Part shown: positions 3,629 to 18,754 of the stretch, piece by piece
Numbering within the stretch: the first letter of the stretch is position 1
Layout: every line of letters starts with the position of its first letter
Source: a virus
DNA length: 20,220 bases
Virus record (IMG/VR): IMGVR_UViG_3300043410_001293
Location: 1 to 20,220 of that record
Strand: one strand, 5' to 3'
Position numbers and translations under genes: made by a program
Notes under the pieces: model-generated
The model's input: the letters and a program-made list of their open reading frames with translations, nothing else
The model's database searches: none
Told to the model about the DNA's origin: nothing

Positions 3629-3827
3629 ACATGAACTAGTAGGTAAAAAGTATACCTTTGAAGATGGAAATGTGTTAGAGGTTATTCAGGTAAAAAGTAG
3701 AGACCACGATACTGATGGTATCGTTCCATATGTTACATATACCATTCATCAAAACAATAACTTGCCCAGAAAGCTAGTTATGTCACTTACTGAATTTATG
3801 AATACATATAGGCATCTGTTTGAGTAA
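3621..3827 (+). CDS. hypothetical protein, 68 aa
   Basis: I do not recognise this protein. It starts MTKHELVGKKYTFEDGNVLEV and looks like a small beta-barrel followed by a helix (MSLTEFMNTYRHLFE). The start codon lies inside the last codons of the previous gene (8-nt overlap), with a weak AGAGA upstream, so coupling is likely. It is the last gene of the first small-gene chain. Confidence 0.7.
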   Translation: MTKHELVGKKYTFEDGNVLEVIQVKSRDHDTDGIVPYVTYTIHQNNNLPRKLVMSLTEFMNTYRHLFE

Positions 3828-3833
3828 TAAATA
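3826..3833 (+). promoter_or_regulatory. possible T4-type late promoter motif (AATAAATA)
   Basis: The octamer AATAAATA sits between two genes and resembles the TATAAATA element of T4-like late promoters. The following ATG is only 4 nt downstream, so a transcript from here would be leaderless or would serve a later start. Such hexamers also occur by chance in AT-rich DNA. Confidence 0.3.
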
Positions 3834-7113: not shown

Positions 7114-8313
7114 ATGTCCGAAGATACAAAACAAATCAACCATTGTAGTTTTTGTGGTAATCACAAGGACGCTGTCAAAAAATTAGTCGTGAGTAACGAT
7201 ACCGCAATATGTAGCGATTGCGTAGAATTATGTCAGGAACTGATTACAGACGGTGCTCCGGAAACTGAACAAACTACAGATCCTGAATACGATCCCATTT
7301 CTATCAAAGAGTATCTTGACCAACATATCATCGGTCAGAATGATGCCAAAATAGTTCTTAGTGTAGCTATTGCTAATCACTATAAACGAATCAATAATCC
7401 ACCTAAAGACTTAGAAATACAAAAAGGCAACGTCCTTGTTGTAGGTCCAACAGGTAGTGGTAAAACCCTACTTGCCAAGACTGCGGCAAAATATCTCAAA
7501 GTGCCCTTTGTGGTGGCTGACGCTACAAGTTTGACCGAAGCTGGGTATGTAGGTGATGATGTTGAATCTATGATTACTATGTTGTTACAGGCCGCCGGTG
7601 GTGATAAACAACAAGCCGAGAGAGGTATTGTCTTCATAGATGAGATTGACAAGGTTGCCCGAAAGGGAGAAAGCACTAGTATCACCCGTGATGTTTCAGG
7701 TGAGGGTGTACAACAAGCATTACTCAAACTAGTTGAGGGTACAACTTGCCGAGTTCCTGCTAGCGGTGGTAGAAAACACCCCGGTAACGATATGTTAGAA
7801 ATCAATACCAAAAATATCTTATTCATTGCTGGTGGCGCATTTGTTGGATTGAAAGACGTTATTGCAAATAGAATGAATGGAACTAGTATTGGCTTCAATG
7901 CTGACGTTCGTGACAACAAAGTAGAAGGTGATCTTACTAAAGTTACACCAGATGACGTAGTGAAATTCGGTATGATACCTGAATTTGTAGGTCGTTTTAC
8001 TACCACAGTAAGCATAAGCGAATTATCCAAAGAACAATTGGTTCACATTTTGACAGATGTTAAGAACAACTACATAAGTCAATACCAATATCTATTGAAA
8101 CTTGATGAGATTGAATTGACGTTTACCCAGGATGCGTTAGAAGAAATAGCAGAATGTGCTATCAAACTAAAAACAGGGGCTAGGGGATTACACACAGAAA
8201 TTGAACGAGTTTTAATGTGTCACATGTATAACTCAAATTTATACCGTAAAAATGAGATTAAAACGCTAAATATAGACAAGGGGCAGGTAATTAATCCAAC
8301 ACCATTGTTATGA
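7114..8313 (+). CDS. clpX: ClpX, ATP-dependent unfoldase subunit of ClpXP
   Basis: ClpX is a hexameric AAA+ unfoldase that recognises tagged proteins and threads them into ClpP. All key parts are present in 399 aa: the C4 zinc-binding domain (C11, C14, C33, C36), Walker A GPTGSGKT (111-118), pore loop GYVG (144-147), Walker B VFIDEIDK (173-180), the RKH loop (220-222), the IGF tripeptide used to dock on ClpP (259-261), an arginine in PEFVGRF (R294) and sensor-2 in GARGL (R358). Bacterial ClpX is about 420 aa, so this copy is slightly short but not truncated in any motif. No clear SD precedes the ATG, and the 39-nt leader is very AT-rich. The stop overlaps the bS21 gene at ATGA. Confidence 0.97.
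   Translation: MSEDTKQINHCSFCGNHKDAVKKLVVSNDTAICSDCVELCQELITDGAPETEQTTDPEYDPISIKEYLDQHIIGQNDAKIVLSVAIANHYKRINNPPKDLEIQKGNVLVVGPTGSGKTLLAKTAAKYLKVPFVVADATSLTEAGYVGDDVESMITMLLQAAGGDKQQAERGIVFIDEIDKVARKGESTSITRDVSGEGVQQALLKLVEGTTCRVPASGGRKHPGNDMLEINTKNILFIAGGAFVGLKDVIANRMNGTSIGFNADVRDNKVEGDLTKVTPDDVVKFGMIPEFVGRFTTTVSISELSKEQLVHILTDVKNNYISQYQYLLKLDEIELTFTQDALEEIAECAIKLKTGARGLHTEIERVLMCHMYNSNLYRKNEIKTLNIDKGQVINPTPLL
8266..8272 (+). promoter_or_regulatory. possible late-type promoter motif upstream of rpsU
   Basis: CTAAATA occurs inside the 3' end of clpX, about 37 nt before the rpsU ATG. It could allow rpsU to be expressed without clpX, but a chance match is possible. Confidence 0.25.
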
Positions 8314-8531
8314 GCGTAAAAGGAAGACGAGTACAAGTTACTGACGGAAATGTTGAAAAAGCATTACGAAAACTCAAAAAGAAGGTTACAGACCAAGGTC
8401 TACTTCAAGAGGTCCGTGACCGTCAAGAATTTGTCAAACCTACGGTAAAAAGAAAGATTGCCAAAGGGCAAGCTAGACGCCGTTGGTTGAAACACTTACG
8501 TGACCAACAATTACCCCCAAAACTATATTAA
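8310..8531 (+). CDS. rpsU: ribosomal protein bS21 homologue
   Basis: This 73-aa, very basic protein matches bS21. It has a short strand (GRRVQVTDGN), a helix EKALRKLKKKV, then GLLQEVRDRQEFVKPTVKRKIAK, and a basic C-terminal helix ending in KLY, as bacterial S21 ends in RLY. bS21 binds the 30S platform near the anti-SD end of 16S rRNA and affects initiation. Phage copies are known in pelagiphages and large freshwater phages, where they are thought to replace the host protein and favour phage mRNA. Its start overlaps the clpX stop (ATGA), so the two are translationally coupled. This is the clearest link between the proteolysis genes and translation control. Confidence 0.93.
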   Translation: MSVKGRRVQVTDGNVEKALRKLKKKVTDQGLLQEVRDRQEFVKPTVKRKIAKGQARRRWLKHLRDQQLPPKLY

Positions 8532-8632
8532 CCATAATAGTTGAATATTTTACGCAACAAACTAAAATAGATATATACATGTAGATGCTTTTTAGGTCTA
8601 CTAAAAATCTTGCTTTTTTAAAGGAGAATACA
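8532..8632 (+). promoter_or_regulatory. AT-rich leader of dnaK, no confident promoter
   Basis: This 101-base gap contains a weak hairpin over 8521-8542 that includes the rpsU stop and is followed by a T-rich stretch. It also holds a short repeat pair GTAGA/TCTAC (8581-8601) and a strong SD AAGGAG (8621-8626), 6 nt before the dnaK ATG. I see no sigma32-type heat-shock promoter and no good sigma70 site. Confidence 0.45.
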
Positions 8633-10528
8633 ATGAGCAAAGTCATCGGTATCGATTTGGGTACCACAAATTCATGCGTCGCCATCATCGAAAATGGCAA
8701 TCCCAAAGTAATTGAAAACAGCGAAGGTGCAAGAACAACACCTAGTATCGTGGCATATGGTGCTGACGAAGTATTGGTCGGTGCAAGTGCTAAACGCCAA
8801 GCAATTACAAATCCAAAGAACACAATTTATGCGGCTAAGCGACTAATCGGTCGTAAGTTCAAAGAAGAAGCCGTACAAAAAGATATTAACCTAATGCCAT
8901 ACCAAATCATTGAAAATGATAACGGTGATGCTTGGGTTCAATCAGGAGACAAGAAACTAGCACCCCCACAAATTAGTGCTGAGGTTCTACGTAAGATGAA
9001 AAAGACCGCAGAAGATTATCTCGGTCACGAAGTCACACAAGCAGTTATTACTGTTCCTGCTTACTTCAATGATAGTCAACGACAAGCAACCAAAGACGCA
9101 GGACGCATTGCGGGTCTAGAAGTATTGCGTATTATTAACGAACCTACAGCGGCTGCTCTAGCATACGGTGTAGACAAACAGGACAAGAAGGACCGAAAGG
9201 TTGCTGTCTATGACTTGGGTGGTGGTACATTTGACGTTTCAATCATTGAAATTGCTAACGTTGATGGTGACAAGCAAATTGAAGTACTATCTACAAATGG
9301 TGACACATTCCTAGGTGGTGAAGACTTTGACCAACGCATCATGGATTTCTTGGTTGATGAGTTCAAAAAGGATCAAGGAGTTGACCTAACCAAAGATGTT
9401 TTAGCACTACAGCGTTTGAAAGAGGCTAGTGAGAAGGCTAAGATTGAGTTGTCAAGTTCTAGTCAGACTGATGTTAACTTGCCATACATCACAGCAGATG
9501 CTAGTGGTCCTAAGCATATGAACATTAAGTTGTCACGTGCTAAACTTGAAAGTCTTGTTGATGAGTTGATTCAGCGTAGTATCGCTCCATGCAAAACAGC
9601 CATGCAAGATGCTGGTGTAAGTGCAAGCGATATCGATGAAATTATTCTTGTAGGTGGTATGACACGTATGCCCAAAGTACAAGAAGAAGTAGAGAAATTG
9701 TTCGGCAAGGCGCCACGTAAGGATGTGAATCCTGACGAAGCTGTCGCAGTAGGTGCTGCCGTTCAAGGTAGTGTACTTGCAGGTGATCGTAAAGACGTAC
9801 TATTGTTAGACGTAACTCCGTTGAGTTTAGGTATCGAAACATTAGGTGGTGTGATGACTAAAGTTATTACTAAGAACACAACCATCCCAACCAAACAAAG
9901 CCAGACATTCAGTACAGCAGACGATAATCAATCAGCAGTAACTATCAAGGTATATCAGGGTGAGCGTGAAATCGCTAAGTACAATAAAGCACTCGGTGAT
10001 TTCAACTTAGAAGGAATTCCTCCTGCACCACGCAATGTACCTCAAATCGAAGTTACTTTTGACATTGACGCAAACGGTATCTTACACGTTAGCGCAAAAG
10101 ATAAAGGAACTGGCAAAGAAAACAAAATCACTATCAAAGCTAATTCTGGATTGACTGAGACAGAAATTCAGCAGATGGTCAAAGATGCTGAAGCAAATGC
10201 TGAGGCAGATAAGAAACAACGTGAACTAATTGATGCACGTAATGGTGCAGAAGGAACGTTGCGTGGCTTCCGTAATGACTTTAATACATATAAAGACCAA
10301 CTTACTGAAGAAGAAAAGACCAAGATTGAAACTGCGCTCAACAATGTTGACACAGCAATTGCCGGTGAAGATGTTGAAGCTATTAACACAGCCGTAAAAG
10401 AAATGTACGAAGCTATTGGCCCTGTCACTGCTAAAAAGTACGAAGCTGAAGAGGCTGCAAAGAAACAATCAGAGTCTAAGGACGAGACTGTGGTTGACGC
10501 AGAAGTTAAAGAAGCACAACCTTCTTAA
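8633..10528 (+). CDS. dnaK: DnaK (Hsp70) chaperone
   Basis: DnaK binds unfolded segments and refolds them in cycles of ATP hydrolysis with DnaJ and GrpE. The 631-aa protein is full length compared with about 638 for bacterial DnaK. Visible motifs are [12 protein letters not shown] at the N-terminus, [22 protein letters not shown] and [10 protein letters not shown] in the ATPase domain, the linker [18 protein letters not shown], and a helical lid ending in [12 protein letters not shown]. The start at 8633 is set by AAGGAG and by homology; an in-frame ATG at 8585 would add 16 residues not seen in DnaK. No dnaJ or grpE is in the window, so it would need host partners or phage genes elsewhere. 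It is much closer to bacterial DnaK than the phage ClpX is to bacterial ClpX, which suggests later acquisition. Confidence 0.98.
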
Positions 10529-10537
10529 CTTAAACTA

Positions 10538-10563
10538 GAGGGCGCCGCATGGGGCGGGCCCTC
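10538..10563 (+). other. GC-rich hairpin between dnaK and hsp20
   Basis: GAGGGC (10538-10543) pairs with GCCCTC (10558-10563), and CCGC (10545-10548) pairs with GCGG (10554-10557) after one bulged G, giving ten base pairs around a 5-nt loop. It is the most GC-rich stretch in an AT-rich neighbourhood. No T-run follows, so it may be an RNA-processing or stability element, or a pause site, rather than a classical terminator. Confidence 0.75.
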
Positions 10564-10597
10564 AATGTCATAACTTGCTTATTAAAGGAGAATTAAC

Positions 10598-11047
10598 ATG
10601 ACAAGAGAATTAACACTACGTTCACTAGATATTCCAGCTATTCATAGATTTGGAATAGGGTTTGATACCATGCTTGAAGAATTAATGAGAGTATCAGGTA
10701 CGCAAGCACAAACAAACTACCCACCACACAACGTTATTCAAACAGGTGACGAGACAATTACTATTGAAATTGCAGTCGCTGGGTTTAATGAAGGTGATAT
10801 CGAAGTTAATGTTGAAGATAACGTTCTGACTATTACTGGTACTAAAGAACCATATGCAGAACCTGTCAACTACAATTACCTACATCGTGGTCTAAGCCGC
10901 AGAAGTTTTACCCAAACTTTCCGTCTAGCACCCTATGTAGAAGTAGTTGAGGCTACAATTAAGAACGGTATCTTGACTATTCTGCTAGAACGCAAACTTC
11001 CGGAAGAAAAGAAGCCCAAGAAGATTGCAATCAATTACAATAAATAA
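10598..11047 (+). CDS. hsp20: Hsp20-family small heat-shock protein
   Basis: Small heat-shock proteins hold unfolded proteins in a refoldable state for DnaK. This 149-aa protein has an N-terminal arm (residues 1-38), an alpha-crystallin domain beginning near YPPHNVIQTGDETITIEIAV, the AGFNEGDIEV and NVLTITG strands, a loop, the RSFTQTFRL strand, and ILTILLERKLPEEKKPKKIAI at the end, with a C-terminal I-x-I-like tail. IbpA-like Hsp20 genes are common in T4-like cyanophages. AAGGAG at 10585-10590 lies 7 nt before the ATG. It sits directly after dnaK, its expected functional partner. Confidence 0.95.
   Translation: MTRELTLRSLDIPAIHRFGIGFDTMLEELMRVSGTQAQTNYPPHNVIQTGDETITIEIAVAGFNEGDIEVNVEDNVLTITGTKEPYAEPVNYNYLHRGLSRRSFTQTFRLAPYVEVVEATIKNGILTILLERKLPEEKKPKKIAINYNK
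11039..11046 (+). promoter_or_regulatory. possible late-type promoter motif upstream of clpS
   Basis: AATAAATA overlaps the hsp20 stop codon and precedes the hairpin and clpS. A transcript starting about 10 nt downstream would begin just before the hairpin at 11070-11093. The motif is short and may be chance. Confidence 0.28.
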
Positions 11048-11093: not shown

Positions 11094-11107
11094 ATTTGAG
11101 AAAAATT

Positions 11108-11416
11108 ATGTCACAAACTGAATCTAAAACCAGAATTAAAACTAACCTTAAGGTAACTGAACCTCCGTTGTTCAAGGTCATTTACATGAATGACAATCAT
11201 ACGACTATGGATTTTGTTGTGAACAGTTTAATTGAACATTTTAATTATACTGAGGATACCGCAACCAATATCACTGAAGGTATCCACGTTGATGGAAGCG
11301 CAGTAGTTGCAGTTTTACCTTATGAAATTGCTGAACAAAAGGGAATTGAAGTTACACTAGAAGCTAGAAATCAAGGGTTCCCACTTCAAGTTAAAATCGA
11401 AGCTGAAGAAGTTTAA
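11108..11416 (+). CDS. clpS: ClpS, N-degron adaptor protein
   Basis: ClpS delivers proteins with bulky hydrophobic N-terminal residues to ClpAP. The 102-aa protein has PPLFKVIYMNDNHTTMDFVV, which keeps the Asn-Asp pair and the gatekeeper Met of the substrate pocket. It then has GIHVDGSAVVAVLPYEIAEQKG, which keeps the pocket His, and ends with ARNQGFPLQVKIE. The second Asp of the usual NDD is Asn here, and the Tyr and Pro of YTPM are His and Thr, so substrate preference may be altered. I chose ATG 11108 over a TTG at 11096 because GAG lies 7 nt upstream. There is no clpA in the window, so the partner is either the host ClpA or, unusually, another unfoldase. Confidence 0.93.
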   Translation: MSQTESKTRIKTNLKVTEPPLFKVIYMNDNHTTMDFVVNSLIEHFNYTEDTATNITEGIHVDGSAVVAVLPYEIAEQKGIEVTLEARNQGFPLQVKIEAEEV

Positions 11417-14460: not shown

Positions 14461-15051
14461 ATGAGTTTAGTGCCGATCGTAATTGAACAAACAAGCAAAG
14501 GTGAGCGTAGCTACGATATTTACAGTCGGCTATTACGTGACCGTGTAATTTTGCTAGAAGGTGAAGTTCATGACCAAATGGCTAACTTGATTGTAGCCCA
14601 ATTGTTGTTCTTAGAATCAGAGGGTGAAAAAGATATTTCAATGTATATCAATAGCCCGGGTGGCAGTGTAACTGCTGGTATGGCAATCTATGATGCGATG
14701 CAATTTATCAAACCCGATGTGCAAACAATCGTAATGGGTCAAGCATGCAGTATGGGAAGTCTATTAGCACAAGCAGGTGCTAAAGGCAAACGTATGATTC
14801 TACCTAATGCACGACACATGATCCATCAACCTTCAGGTGGCGCACGTGGTCAGGCTACTGACATGGAAATTCAAGTAAAAGAGATTTTGCAAATGAAACG
14901 CACGTTGACCGAAATCTATGTCAATCACAATAGCAAGGGAAAAACCTTTGTAGAGTTGGCTAAGGATATGGAACGTGATTATTTCATGTCCGCGCAAGAA
15001 GCCGTAGACTATGGACTTGCTGACCAAATTATTACCAAACGTGATATTTGA
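14461..15051 (+). CDS. clpP: ClpP, serine protease subunit of ClpXP
   Basis: ClpP forms the tetradecameric proteolytic chamber fed by ClpX or ClpA. The 196-aa protein has the nucleophile in GQACSMG (S97), MIHQP (H122) and MERDYF (D173), plus the INSPGG segment and the [11 protein letters not shown] helix. It starts [19 protein letters not shown], which lines up with the mature N-terminus of bacterial ClpP (ALVPMVIEQT in E. coli), so the usual 14-residue propeptide is absent. AAGGA lies 6 nt before the ATG. The residue before the nucleophile is Cys rather than the more usual Ala. Its stop codon lies inside the -35 box of the next promoter. Confidence 0.97.
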
Positions 15052-17691: not shown

Positions 17692-18047
17692 TGAAATACT
17701 TCCAAGAGGTTACTGAGTGGGCAGACAAAACGCCCAATCACATTTATTATCTATCCGATGATAAGACCTCTATGGTTGGTTACATCAAGGTAGGTAGCAA
17801 AGACCTGTACAAGTTTAAGAGCCCTATTCGGATTGATGTGCGTGGTCGCAAGTTTAAGGTTCTTGACATGAAGGCAGAACCGGACAATGTGTACTTTAAG
17901 AAAGAGGCACCTAAGAAGGATGTTATCATTGTACAGGGTTCTAATGGTAAGGAATATCAAGTAGAAAAGATTGGCGACAAGTATAGTTGCAGTTGCCCTG
18001 GCTTTATGTTCCGTCATAAGTGTAAACATGTTGAAGGATTGAAATGA
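17691..18047 (+). CDS. SWIM-type zinc-finger protein, 118 aa
   Basis: The C-terminus has C100-S-C102, eight residues, then C111-K-H113, which matches the SWIM zinc motif CxCxnCxH known for binding DNA or proteins. The strand NGKEYQVEKIGDKYSCSC precedes it, as is usual. The N-terminal half contains a possible beta-domain (VGYIKVGSKDLYKFKSPIRI). The gene overlaps its neighbours at both ends, and AAGGA at 18034-18038 near its 3' end lies 5 nt before the next ATG. Confidence 0.82.
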   Translation: MKYFQEVTEWADKTPNHIYYLSDDKTSMVGYIKVGSKDLYKFKSPIRIDVRGRKFKVLDMKAEPDNVYFKKEAPKKDVIIVQGSNGKEYQVEKIGDKYSCSCPGFMFRHKCKHVEGLK

Positions 18048-18295
18048 ACGAACGAATTCAAGAACTTTCTGTAGAGGCATGGCGTTTTACCTCCAATCAG
18101 GTGGCTTATCTCAACCGCATCCATAATAGATCATATTCGCAGGATGAGGTTACAGATATTTTTGAACAAAAATTCGCCGAGTTGATTGTCAAGGAATGCT
18201 TGGACCAATGCTATAACCGTGGCATGAACGATGAATTGTATGCTGGCCAGTTGAAAGCGGCGGCATATATTGAAGAACATTTCGGAGTTGAATGA
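18044..18295 (+). CDS. NERI/HFGVE-family small protein, copy 6
   Basis: This 83-aa protein starts MNERIQELSVEAWRF, has FAELIVKEC in the centre and ends IEEHFGVE. The copies at 685-2113 are 16 kb away, so this is a second cluster of the family. The first variable stretch has VAYLNRIHNRSYSQDEV and the second has YNRGMNDELYAGQ. GGAG at 18284-18287 lies 7 nt before ATG 18295. Function is unknown. Confidence 0.85.
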   Translation: MNERIQELSVEAWRFTSNQVAYLNRIHNRSYSQDEVTDIFEQKFAELIVKECLDQCYNRGMNDELYAGQLKAAAYIEEHFGVE

Positions 18296-18519
18296 TGATT
18301 ACAGGTGTTCGTTGGTTTACAAATCGTGATGGGTGTATGGGTATTGTACAGATTGTACAAGACCATCAAAAGGATATATATCGTCAAACCGGAGAGGCTG
18401 ACTTCAAATATTACATTGGAGTTGGTAGTGGTCTAGATGAAAAGGCTGATATGAATCACATTGCTGACTACGGATGTCCTTTTGACAAGGCACCGGGTGA
18501 TGTATTGTTTGGAGTCTGA
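18295..18519 (+). CDS. hypothetical phage protein, 74 aa
   Basis: The protein begins MITGVRWFTNRDGCMGIVQIV and contains YYIGVGSGLDEKAD and IADYGCPFDKAPGD, a small alpha/beta fold. I recall related phage hypotheticals but know no function. Tandem ATG codons stand at 18292 and 18295, and I chose 18295 for its 7-nt distance from GGAG. It is not a member of the NERI family, yet it ends LFGV, coded by TTT GGA GTC, which puts GGAG (18511-18514) 6 nt before the next ATG. Confidence 0.78.
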   Translation: MITGVRWFTNRDGCMGIVQIVQDHQKDIYRQTGEADFKYYIGVGSGLDEKADMNHIADYGCPFDKAPGDVLFGV

Positions 18520-18520
18520 C

Positions 18521-18754
18521 ATGAACGAACGAATTTTAAAACTTATGGCCGAGGCTGGATTTGATGTAGAGAAACTACGCACCTATCCCGGTGGCTGGCC
18601 CAGAGAAGACCTATTGGTTCTTGAAGACTTTGCCAAGTTGATTGTTCGGGAATGTATGAGTAAGACTGCTGGATATCTGCTTGAGGATGAATTCGGTGGG
18701 TCAGATGTAAAAGAAGCATCAGAAGAACTGGCAAAACATTTCGGAGTTGAATGA
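18521..18754 (+). CDS. NERI/HFGVE-family small protein, copy 7
   Basis: This 77-aa protein starts MNERILKLMAEAGFDVEKL, has FAKLIVREC in the centre and ends LAKHFGVE. I placed the start at 18521, where the family motif begins and GGAG is 6 nt upstream; an in-frame start at 18461 would add 20 unrelated residues. The variable stretches are YPGGWPREDLLVLED and a Gly/Ser/Asp-rich one. Its tail supplies GGAG (18743-18746) for the next gene. Confidence 0.85.
   Translation: MNERILKLMAEAGFDVEKLRTYPGGWPREDLLVLEDFAKLIVRECMSKTAGYLLEDEFGGSDVKEASEELAKHFGVE

Follow-up and report, generated by a model that had tools for sequence, protein, structure and literature searches.

In the literature, bS21 is the ribosomal protein that phages carry most often. 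The virus record of 20,220 bases analysed here (the window) contains a bS21 gene, rpsU, whose start overlaps the stop of a gene for the unfoldase ClpX. This locus raises the question of whether the two proteins are made together, as the initial annotation held, and whether their pairing serves the exchange of host bS21 for the phage copy. The sharing of ATGA by the two genes was confirmed, and both gene identities were borne out by domain matches (Table 1). For ClpX, the Pfam matches were zf-C4_ClpX (2.3e-12) and AAA_2 (2.7e-32). For bS21, Ribosomal_S21 (PF01165; 6.5e-16, with 58.2 bits where 27 is the cut-off) covered most of the protein (residues 8-58), and ribosome-bound S21 chains in the PDB matched it with a best value of 6.8e-07. 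The 498-aa membrane protein gene stands at the head of the gene run leading into clpX, and Pfam and PHROGs identified DnaK, Hsp20, ClpS and ClpP downstream of rpsU on the same strand. Position 8266, from which the initial annotation had marked the pair, falls within the clpX tail, at the octamer GCTAAATA.

Table 1. Coordinates of the clpX-rpsU locus and associated features in the window.
Feature	Position	Strand	Remarks
AATAAATA, late-promoter-like octamer	3826..3833	+	12 nt before the ATG (3838) of the 498-aa membrane protein gene
clpX	7114..8313	+	399 aa; zinc finger, Walker A/B, pore loop, RKH and ClpP-docking IGF loop all present
GCTAAATA, T4-type late-promoter-like octamer in the clpX tail	8265..8272	+	predicted from conservation; 44-45 nt before the rpsU ATG
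AGGGG, window version of the AGGAG-like block	8279..8283	+	synonymously constrained; -31..-27 of rpsU
ATGA, rpsU start over clpX stop	8310..8313	+	clpX ends TTA TGA
rpsU, viral bS21	8310..8531	+	73 aa; ATG at 8310, begins ATGAGC
dnaK	8633..10528	+	strong Shine-Dalgarno
hsp20	10598..11047	+	Pfam/PHROGs
clpS adaptor	11096..11416	+	Pfam/PHROGs; exact start unsure
clpP	14461..15051	+	catalytic Ser97-His122-Asp173

Two other features of the window were observed. The leaders of dnaK and hsp20 (8560-8635 and 10536-10603) are alike, with a hairpin followed by CTTGCT(T)n..AAAGGAG before the ATG, and resemble a ROSE RNA thermometer; Rfam ROSE_3 on the hsp20 leader was below threshold (28.4 bits, E 0.028), and four related loci gave no match. 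Runs of small paralogous proteins ending in HFGVE(E), many of them joined by ATGA overlaps, are present at 685-2113 and 18044-18754 (+).

The recurrence of the pair was evaluated by searching IMG/VR with the window bS21 and with the window ClpX, with counts made over distinct loci. It was found that clpX adjoined rpsU in 80/80 loci retrieved with the bS21 query, and that rpsU was directly downstream of clpX in 92 of the 101 distinct related ClpX loci; the nine loci with clpX and no rpsU are fragments, and rpsU may sit elsewhere in those phages. A search seeded with the most diverged member, L079, gave adjacency in 79/79 loci; the 51 of them that were new and distinct make up a second, more diverged clade, in which rpsU was directly downstream of clpX in 51/51. 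In a third group, with ClpX about 45-55% identical, rpsU was either adjacent or separated from clpX by infC, the gene for IF3. When the search was seeded with the ClpX of an Agrobacterium phage (Atu), rpsU was near clpX in 73/80 loci; among the 63 distinct ones, 24 had rpsU within 60 nt and 38 had a gap of at least 500 nt, in which the open reading frame encodes IF3 (five tested, PF05198 and PF00707). The order clpX-infC-rpsU-hsp20-clpS is carried by many giant phages of this Atu_ph07-like ClpX group (L321-L400), and no IF3 was found in the window-type genomes searched. These counts show that the adjacency, which the initial annotation had described from one genome, recurs widely; the refuting condition named there, that the pairing be unique to this genome, does not hold. 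The bS21 of the type found in Pelagibacter phage HTVC008M was adjacent to clpX in 0/80 related loci; therefore, the pairing belongs to some giant-phage lineages and not to phage bS21 generally. All close relatives are metagenomic contigs, and gene starts in whole contigs come from a simple custom caller.

A search of genome contigs for a bacterial source of the pair, with a single sequence as query, returned no close relative. An alignment query brought up nine distant bS21 genes, and no match to clpX was seen in the neighbourhood of any of them; L518 and L519, the two that have hsp20 and clpS in their vicinity, are possibly phage contigs within MAGs. One contig of 524,565 bases (L044/L116, L074/L128) contained two clpX-rpsU-clpP islands that differ from each other and lie at a great distance, one on each strand; either the island was duplicated, or the assembly merged two phages.

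Comparisons of one whole clade member with two others showed that 132/148 and 107/123 of the adjacent ortholog pairs had been retained. Given this high synteny, the clpX-rpsU adjacency within a clade is expected from inheritance, and conserved adjacency within a clade was dropped as proof of function. The distances of clpX and rpsU were also correlated (Mantel r = 0.68). Both results favour plain inheritance, in which the genes lie in a syntenic block without joint function and gene order changes slowly; we give this explanation, which is compatible with the embedded promoter described below, somewhat less than an even chance. Where median protein identity had dropped to about 48% and 39%, only about half of adjacent ortholog pairs survived (55/106 and 32/64), whereas the clpX-rpsU adjacency held in all 79 of the L079-seeded loci, and in the Atu-seeded loci rpsU stayed near clpX (73/80) while clpP and lipoprotein genes had moved, with clpP about 40 to 154 genes from clpX. 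The order kept at depth was that of the membrane protein gene (498 aa in the window), clpX, (infC), rpsU, hsp20 and clpS, and a Clp_N protein of ClpA size was found in 14/15 related large records. Also against inheritance without joint function, an embedded promoter would be a selected joint feature, lost if rpsU moved away.

The junction itself was compared in the 92 distinct clpX-rpsU pairs: the overlap was exactly 4 bases in 75 and 7-35 bases in 16, and one pair had a 9-base gap. The overlap is conserved, although an overlap of 4 bases is nothing unusual in phages of this kind (68/387 and 33/302 of the co-directional gene pairs in two relatives; 11-18%). In this first set, the overlapped rpsU starts had no Shine-Dalgarno sequence, with a mean aSD duplex of -0.4 kcal/mol compared to -8.8 for dnaK, -8.3 for hsp20 and -5.9 kcal/mol for clpP in the same phages; clpX was likewise without one. 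The sole pair of the set without an overlap (L079, with the 9-base gap) had its own strong Shine-Dalgarno sequence (-12.5 kcal/mol). Of 38 overlapping rpsU starts in the second clade, about two thirds had a Shine-Dalgarno sequence. The window combines the two features of termination-reinitiation, an overlapping stop and start (ATGA) and a weak independent start, and translational coupling of rpsU to clpX is consistent with both; the frequency of ATGA overlaps in these genomes, the similarly weak start of clpX and the Shine-Dalgarno sequences of the second clade speak against giving this fit much weight.

Inspection of the clpX tail pointed to a second mode of expression. A core of the form [A/C]TAAATA (the DNA word there being G[A/C]TAAATA) is located at -44 of the rpsU ATG, and it was present in 85/92 clpX genes followed by rpsU compared to 2/9 without it (Fisher p = 6e-6, for sequences that are not independent and whose kinship was considered only through the tree check). 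In that check, the tips lacking rpsU were scattered over the ClpX tree, pointing to repeated losses of rpsU. Synonymous conservation along clpX peaked at the very start and in the tail, where codons 384, 385, 389, 390 and 399 were at or above the 98th percentile of constraint. In the second clade, the TAAATA core was found in the clpX tail in 51/51 cases (the rate over the rest of clpX being 0.002 per 60 nt), and was encoded mostly through Val-Asn codons instead of Leu/Ile-Asn, that is, in another codon register. The codon choice there was GTA in 39/43 (29% elsewhere in the gene) and AAT in 43/43 (61% elsewhere). One DNA word kept in two reading contexts would be hard to explain by protein constraint. 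Since the core precedes rpsU by 44 nt and is kept mainly where rpsU follows, rpsU can probably be transcribed without clpX. The statement of the initial annotation that the two are made together therefore stands in part: the overlap and the start lacking a Shine-Dalgarno sequence fit coupling, whereas the late-promoter core embedded in clpX argues against obligatory joint production.

The same word was found genome-wide. When no motif was given as input, ATAAATA ranked first among the strand-biased intergenic 7-mers of two whole relatives of 350 kb, with an enrichment of about 20-fold, and it also ranked first in a third, distant relative (G19). It lies mostly 12-14 or 24-33 nt upstream of starts, and the genes that it leads include those of the terminase large subunit, tail sheath and baseplate wedge. 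T4 late promoters are read by gp55 with the host RNA polymerase. The elements found here resemble them in the TAAATA core, in the octamers like TATAAATA that are positioned and strand-biased before late genes, in the late structural genes under the word, and in a gp55-type late sigma (phrog_12791, E about 1e-72) in 7/8 related records, the window record being only 20 kb long. They differ from T4 in that the rpsU element is within the coding end of the upstream gene and often begins with GA or GC. The window octamer GCTAAATA matches TATAAATA at 6/8 positions and is the C variant, which is less enriched in intergenic regions than ATAAATA; it is the weaker variant, which counts against the embedded promoter.

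These data bear on an alternative that we regard as unlikely, namely that coupling is the main control, with rpsU read only by ribosomes terminating on clpX, in a fixed ratio, and with TAAATA reflecting protein or codon-usage constraint. It agrees with the 91/92 overlapping starts (first set) and their absent Shine-Dalgarno sequence, and is at odds with the two thirds of second-clade starts that have one, with the other codon register of TAAATA in that clade and with the identity of TAAATA to the genome-wide late-promoter word. Furthermore, the word is gone where rpsU is absent though the residues can stay, as in L121, which keeps CTAAACATC and has lost TAAATA. On the basis of the conservation of the core, its two codon registers, its match to the genome-wide late word and the gp55-type sigma, rpsU is most likely served by a late promoter of its own, located inside clpX.

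We take the transcription start to lie, relative to the octamer, as in T4. The predicted start of the embedded promoter then coincides with an AGGAG-like block at -31..-27 of rpsU that is under strong synonymous constraint in relatives. At about 25 nt from the rpsU ATG, this block is too far for a normal Shine-Dalgarno sequence, and RNAalifold gave no conserved hairpin that would bring it near the start. A transcript from the embedded promoter would present the rpsU AUG without a Shine-Dalgarno sequence or upstream translation to start from, which counts against this promoter. Elsewhere, three relatives (G002, G004 and G005) have 27, 19 and 21 genes, the terminase large subunit gene among them, in which a late octamer stands about 12-14 nt ahead of the ATG and a Shine-Dalgarno sequence is missing; window sites are at 3826, 12444 and 12957 (+). 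With a T4-like start, such octamers would give leaderless late mRNAs. A tie between bS21 and leaderless late mRNAs was considered and rejected, such octamers being equally common in two fragments without rpsU. The octamer at 3826 could drive clpX, so clpX may be late too. An early clpX under a host sigma-70 promoter, combined with a late rpsU, is not claimed: 27/99 loci passed, compared to 10.8% of random positions.

We consider it likely that rpsU is a late gene in an inherited island, with translation coupled to clpX and with its own embedded gp55-type late promoter. clpX and rpsU would lie side by side in a set of proteostasis and translation genes that is inherited as an island and consists of clpX, in some lineages infC, rpsU, hsp20 and clpS, often with dnaK and clpP. 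By one route, rpsU would be expressed as the tail of a clpX-containing mRNA, on which its start, lacking a Shine-Dalgarno sequence, would need ribosomes finishing clpX at ATGA. By the other, it would be transcribed from the gp55-type late promoter within the last 60 bases of clpX, which would supply bS21 in excess of ClpX once late mRNAs dominate; bS21 would presumably be needed in larger amounts than a hexameric unfoldase. Transcription from the motif, coupling, late timing in the window phage and incorporation of phage bS21 into 30S subunits are inferred. Late expression of phage bS21 has been reported in other phages (PMC9723584).

ClpX and the phage ClpP would act as a general unfoldase and protease, for which specific action on host bS21 is possible. 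The ClpX C4 zinc finger, Walker A/B, GYVG pore loop and RKH loop are invariant or nearly so in 99 sequences, the ClpP-docking IGF loop reads I/M-G-F in 99/99, and the Ser-His-Asp triad of ClpP is invariant in 73/73 distinct sequences. Such a complete ClpXP, together with the widespread clpX-rpsU adjacency and the presence in another group of IF3, a second initiation factor, between the two genes, agrees with the proposal of the initial annotation that ClpXP unfolds or degrades host bS21 (or another initiation factor) and that phage bS21, made with ClpX, replaces it. A phage protease against host bS21 has been proposed independently, as speculation (PMC9976891), and the viral bS21 of HTVC008M was shown to enter E. 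coli ribosomes (PMC6375957). However, it did so without any phage protease, nothing in the sequence points to the substrate, and no report of bS21/RpsU as a ClpXP substrate was found in the literature searched. In addition, clpX persists without rpsU in 9 loci and stays also with hsp20 and clpS, and in some phages infC; clpP is not beside the pair in distant relatives, and the embedded promoter splits the expression of clpX and rpsU. We therefore regard removal of host bS21 as improbable. In an extended form, ClpX(P) would be a machine dedicated to stripping host bS21 (and, in infC-bearing relatives, host IF3 too) off the 30S subunit, after which the embedded late promoter would yield phage bS21 in large amounts. 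This form is very improbable; if true, a ribosomal protein would be exchanged during infection in two steps, with the help of a protease.

The locus can be placed among known systems. In published phages, Hsp20 (n=127) and Clp proteases (n=50 and 47) occur within ten genes of bS21 (PMC9723584). The freshwater giant phages of that paper likewise carry bS21, with late expression reported, but there the gene is on the reverse strand and has structural genes (TerL, portal, prohead protease and MCP) around it. In the window, by contrast, rpsU overlaps clpX and has clpX, dnaK, hsp20 and clpS as neighbours, all on the same strand. A description of an rpsU that overlaps clpX, with a promoter embedded in clpX, was not found in the passages of PMC9723584 consulted. 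In Sinorhizobium phage AP-J-162 and Agrobacterium phage Atu_ph07, clpX is directly beside infC (PMC11242549); AP-J-162 has its bS21 gene at another site, and in Atu_ph07 the gene is close by once the two ends of the record are joined. In both, IF3 intervenes and clpX and rpsU do not overlap, unlike the window-type genomes. HTVC008M also carries a viral bS21, which differs from that of the window in not being beside clpX.

The conserved clpX-(infC)-rpsU-hsp20-clpS island supplies a concrete candidate for the bS21-directed protease previously speculated upon. The promoter predicted within clpX would imply a split in which ClpX comes from upstream transcription and bS21 is boosted late, and the single DNA word in two coding registers would be a clear example of selection for a regulatory element within the end of a coding sequence.
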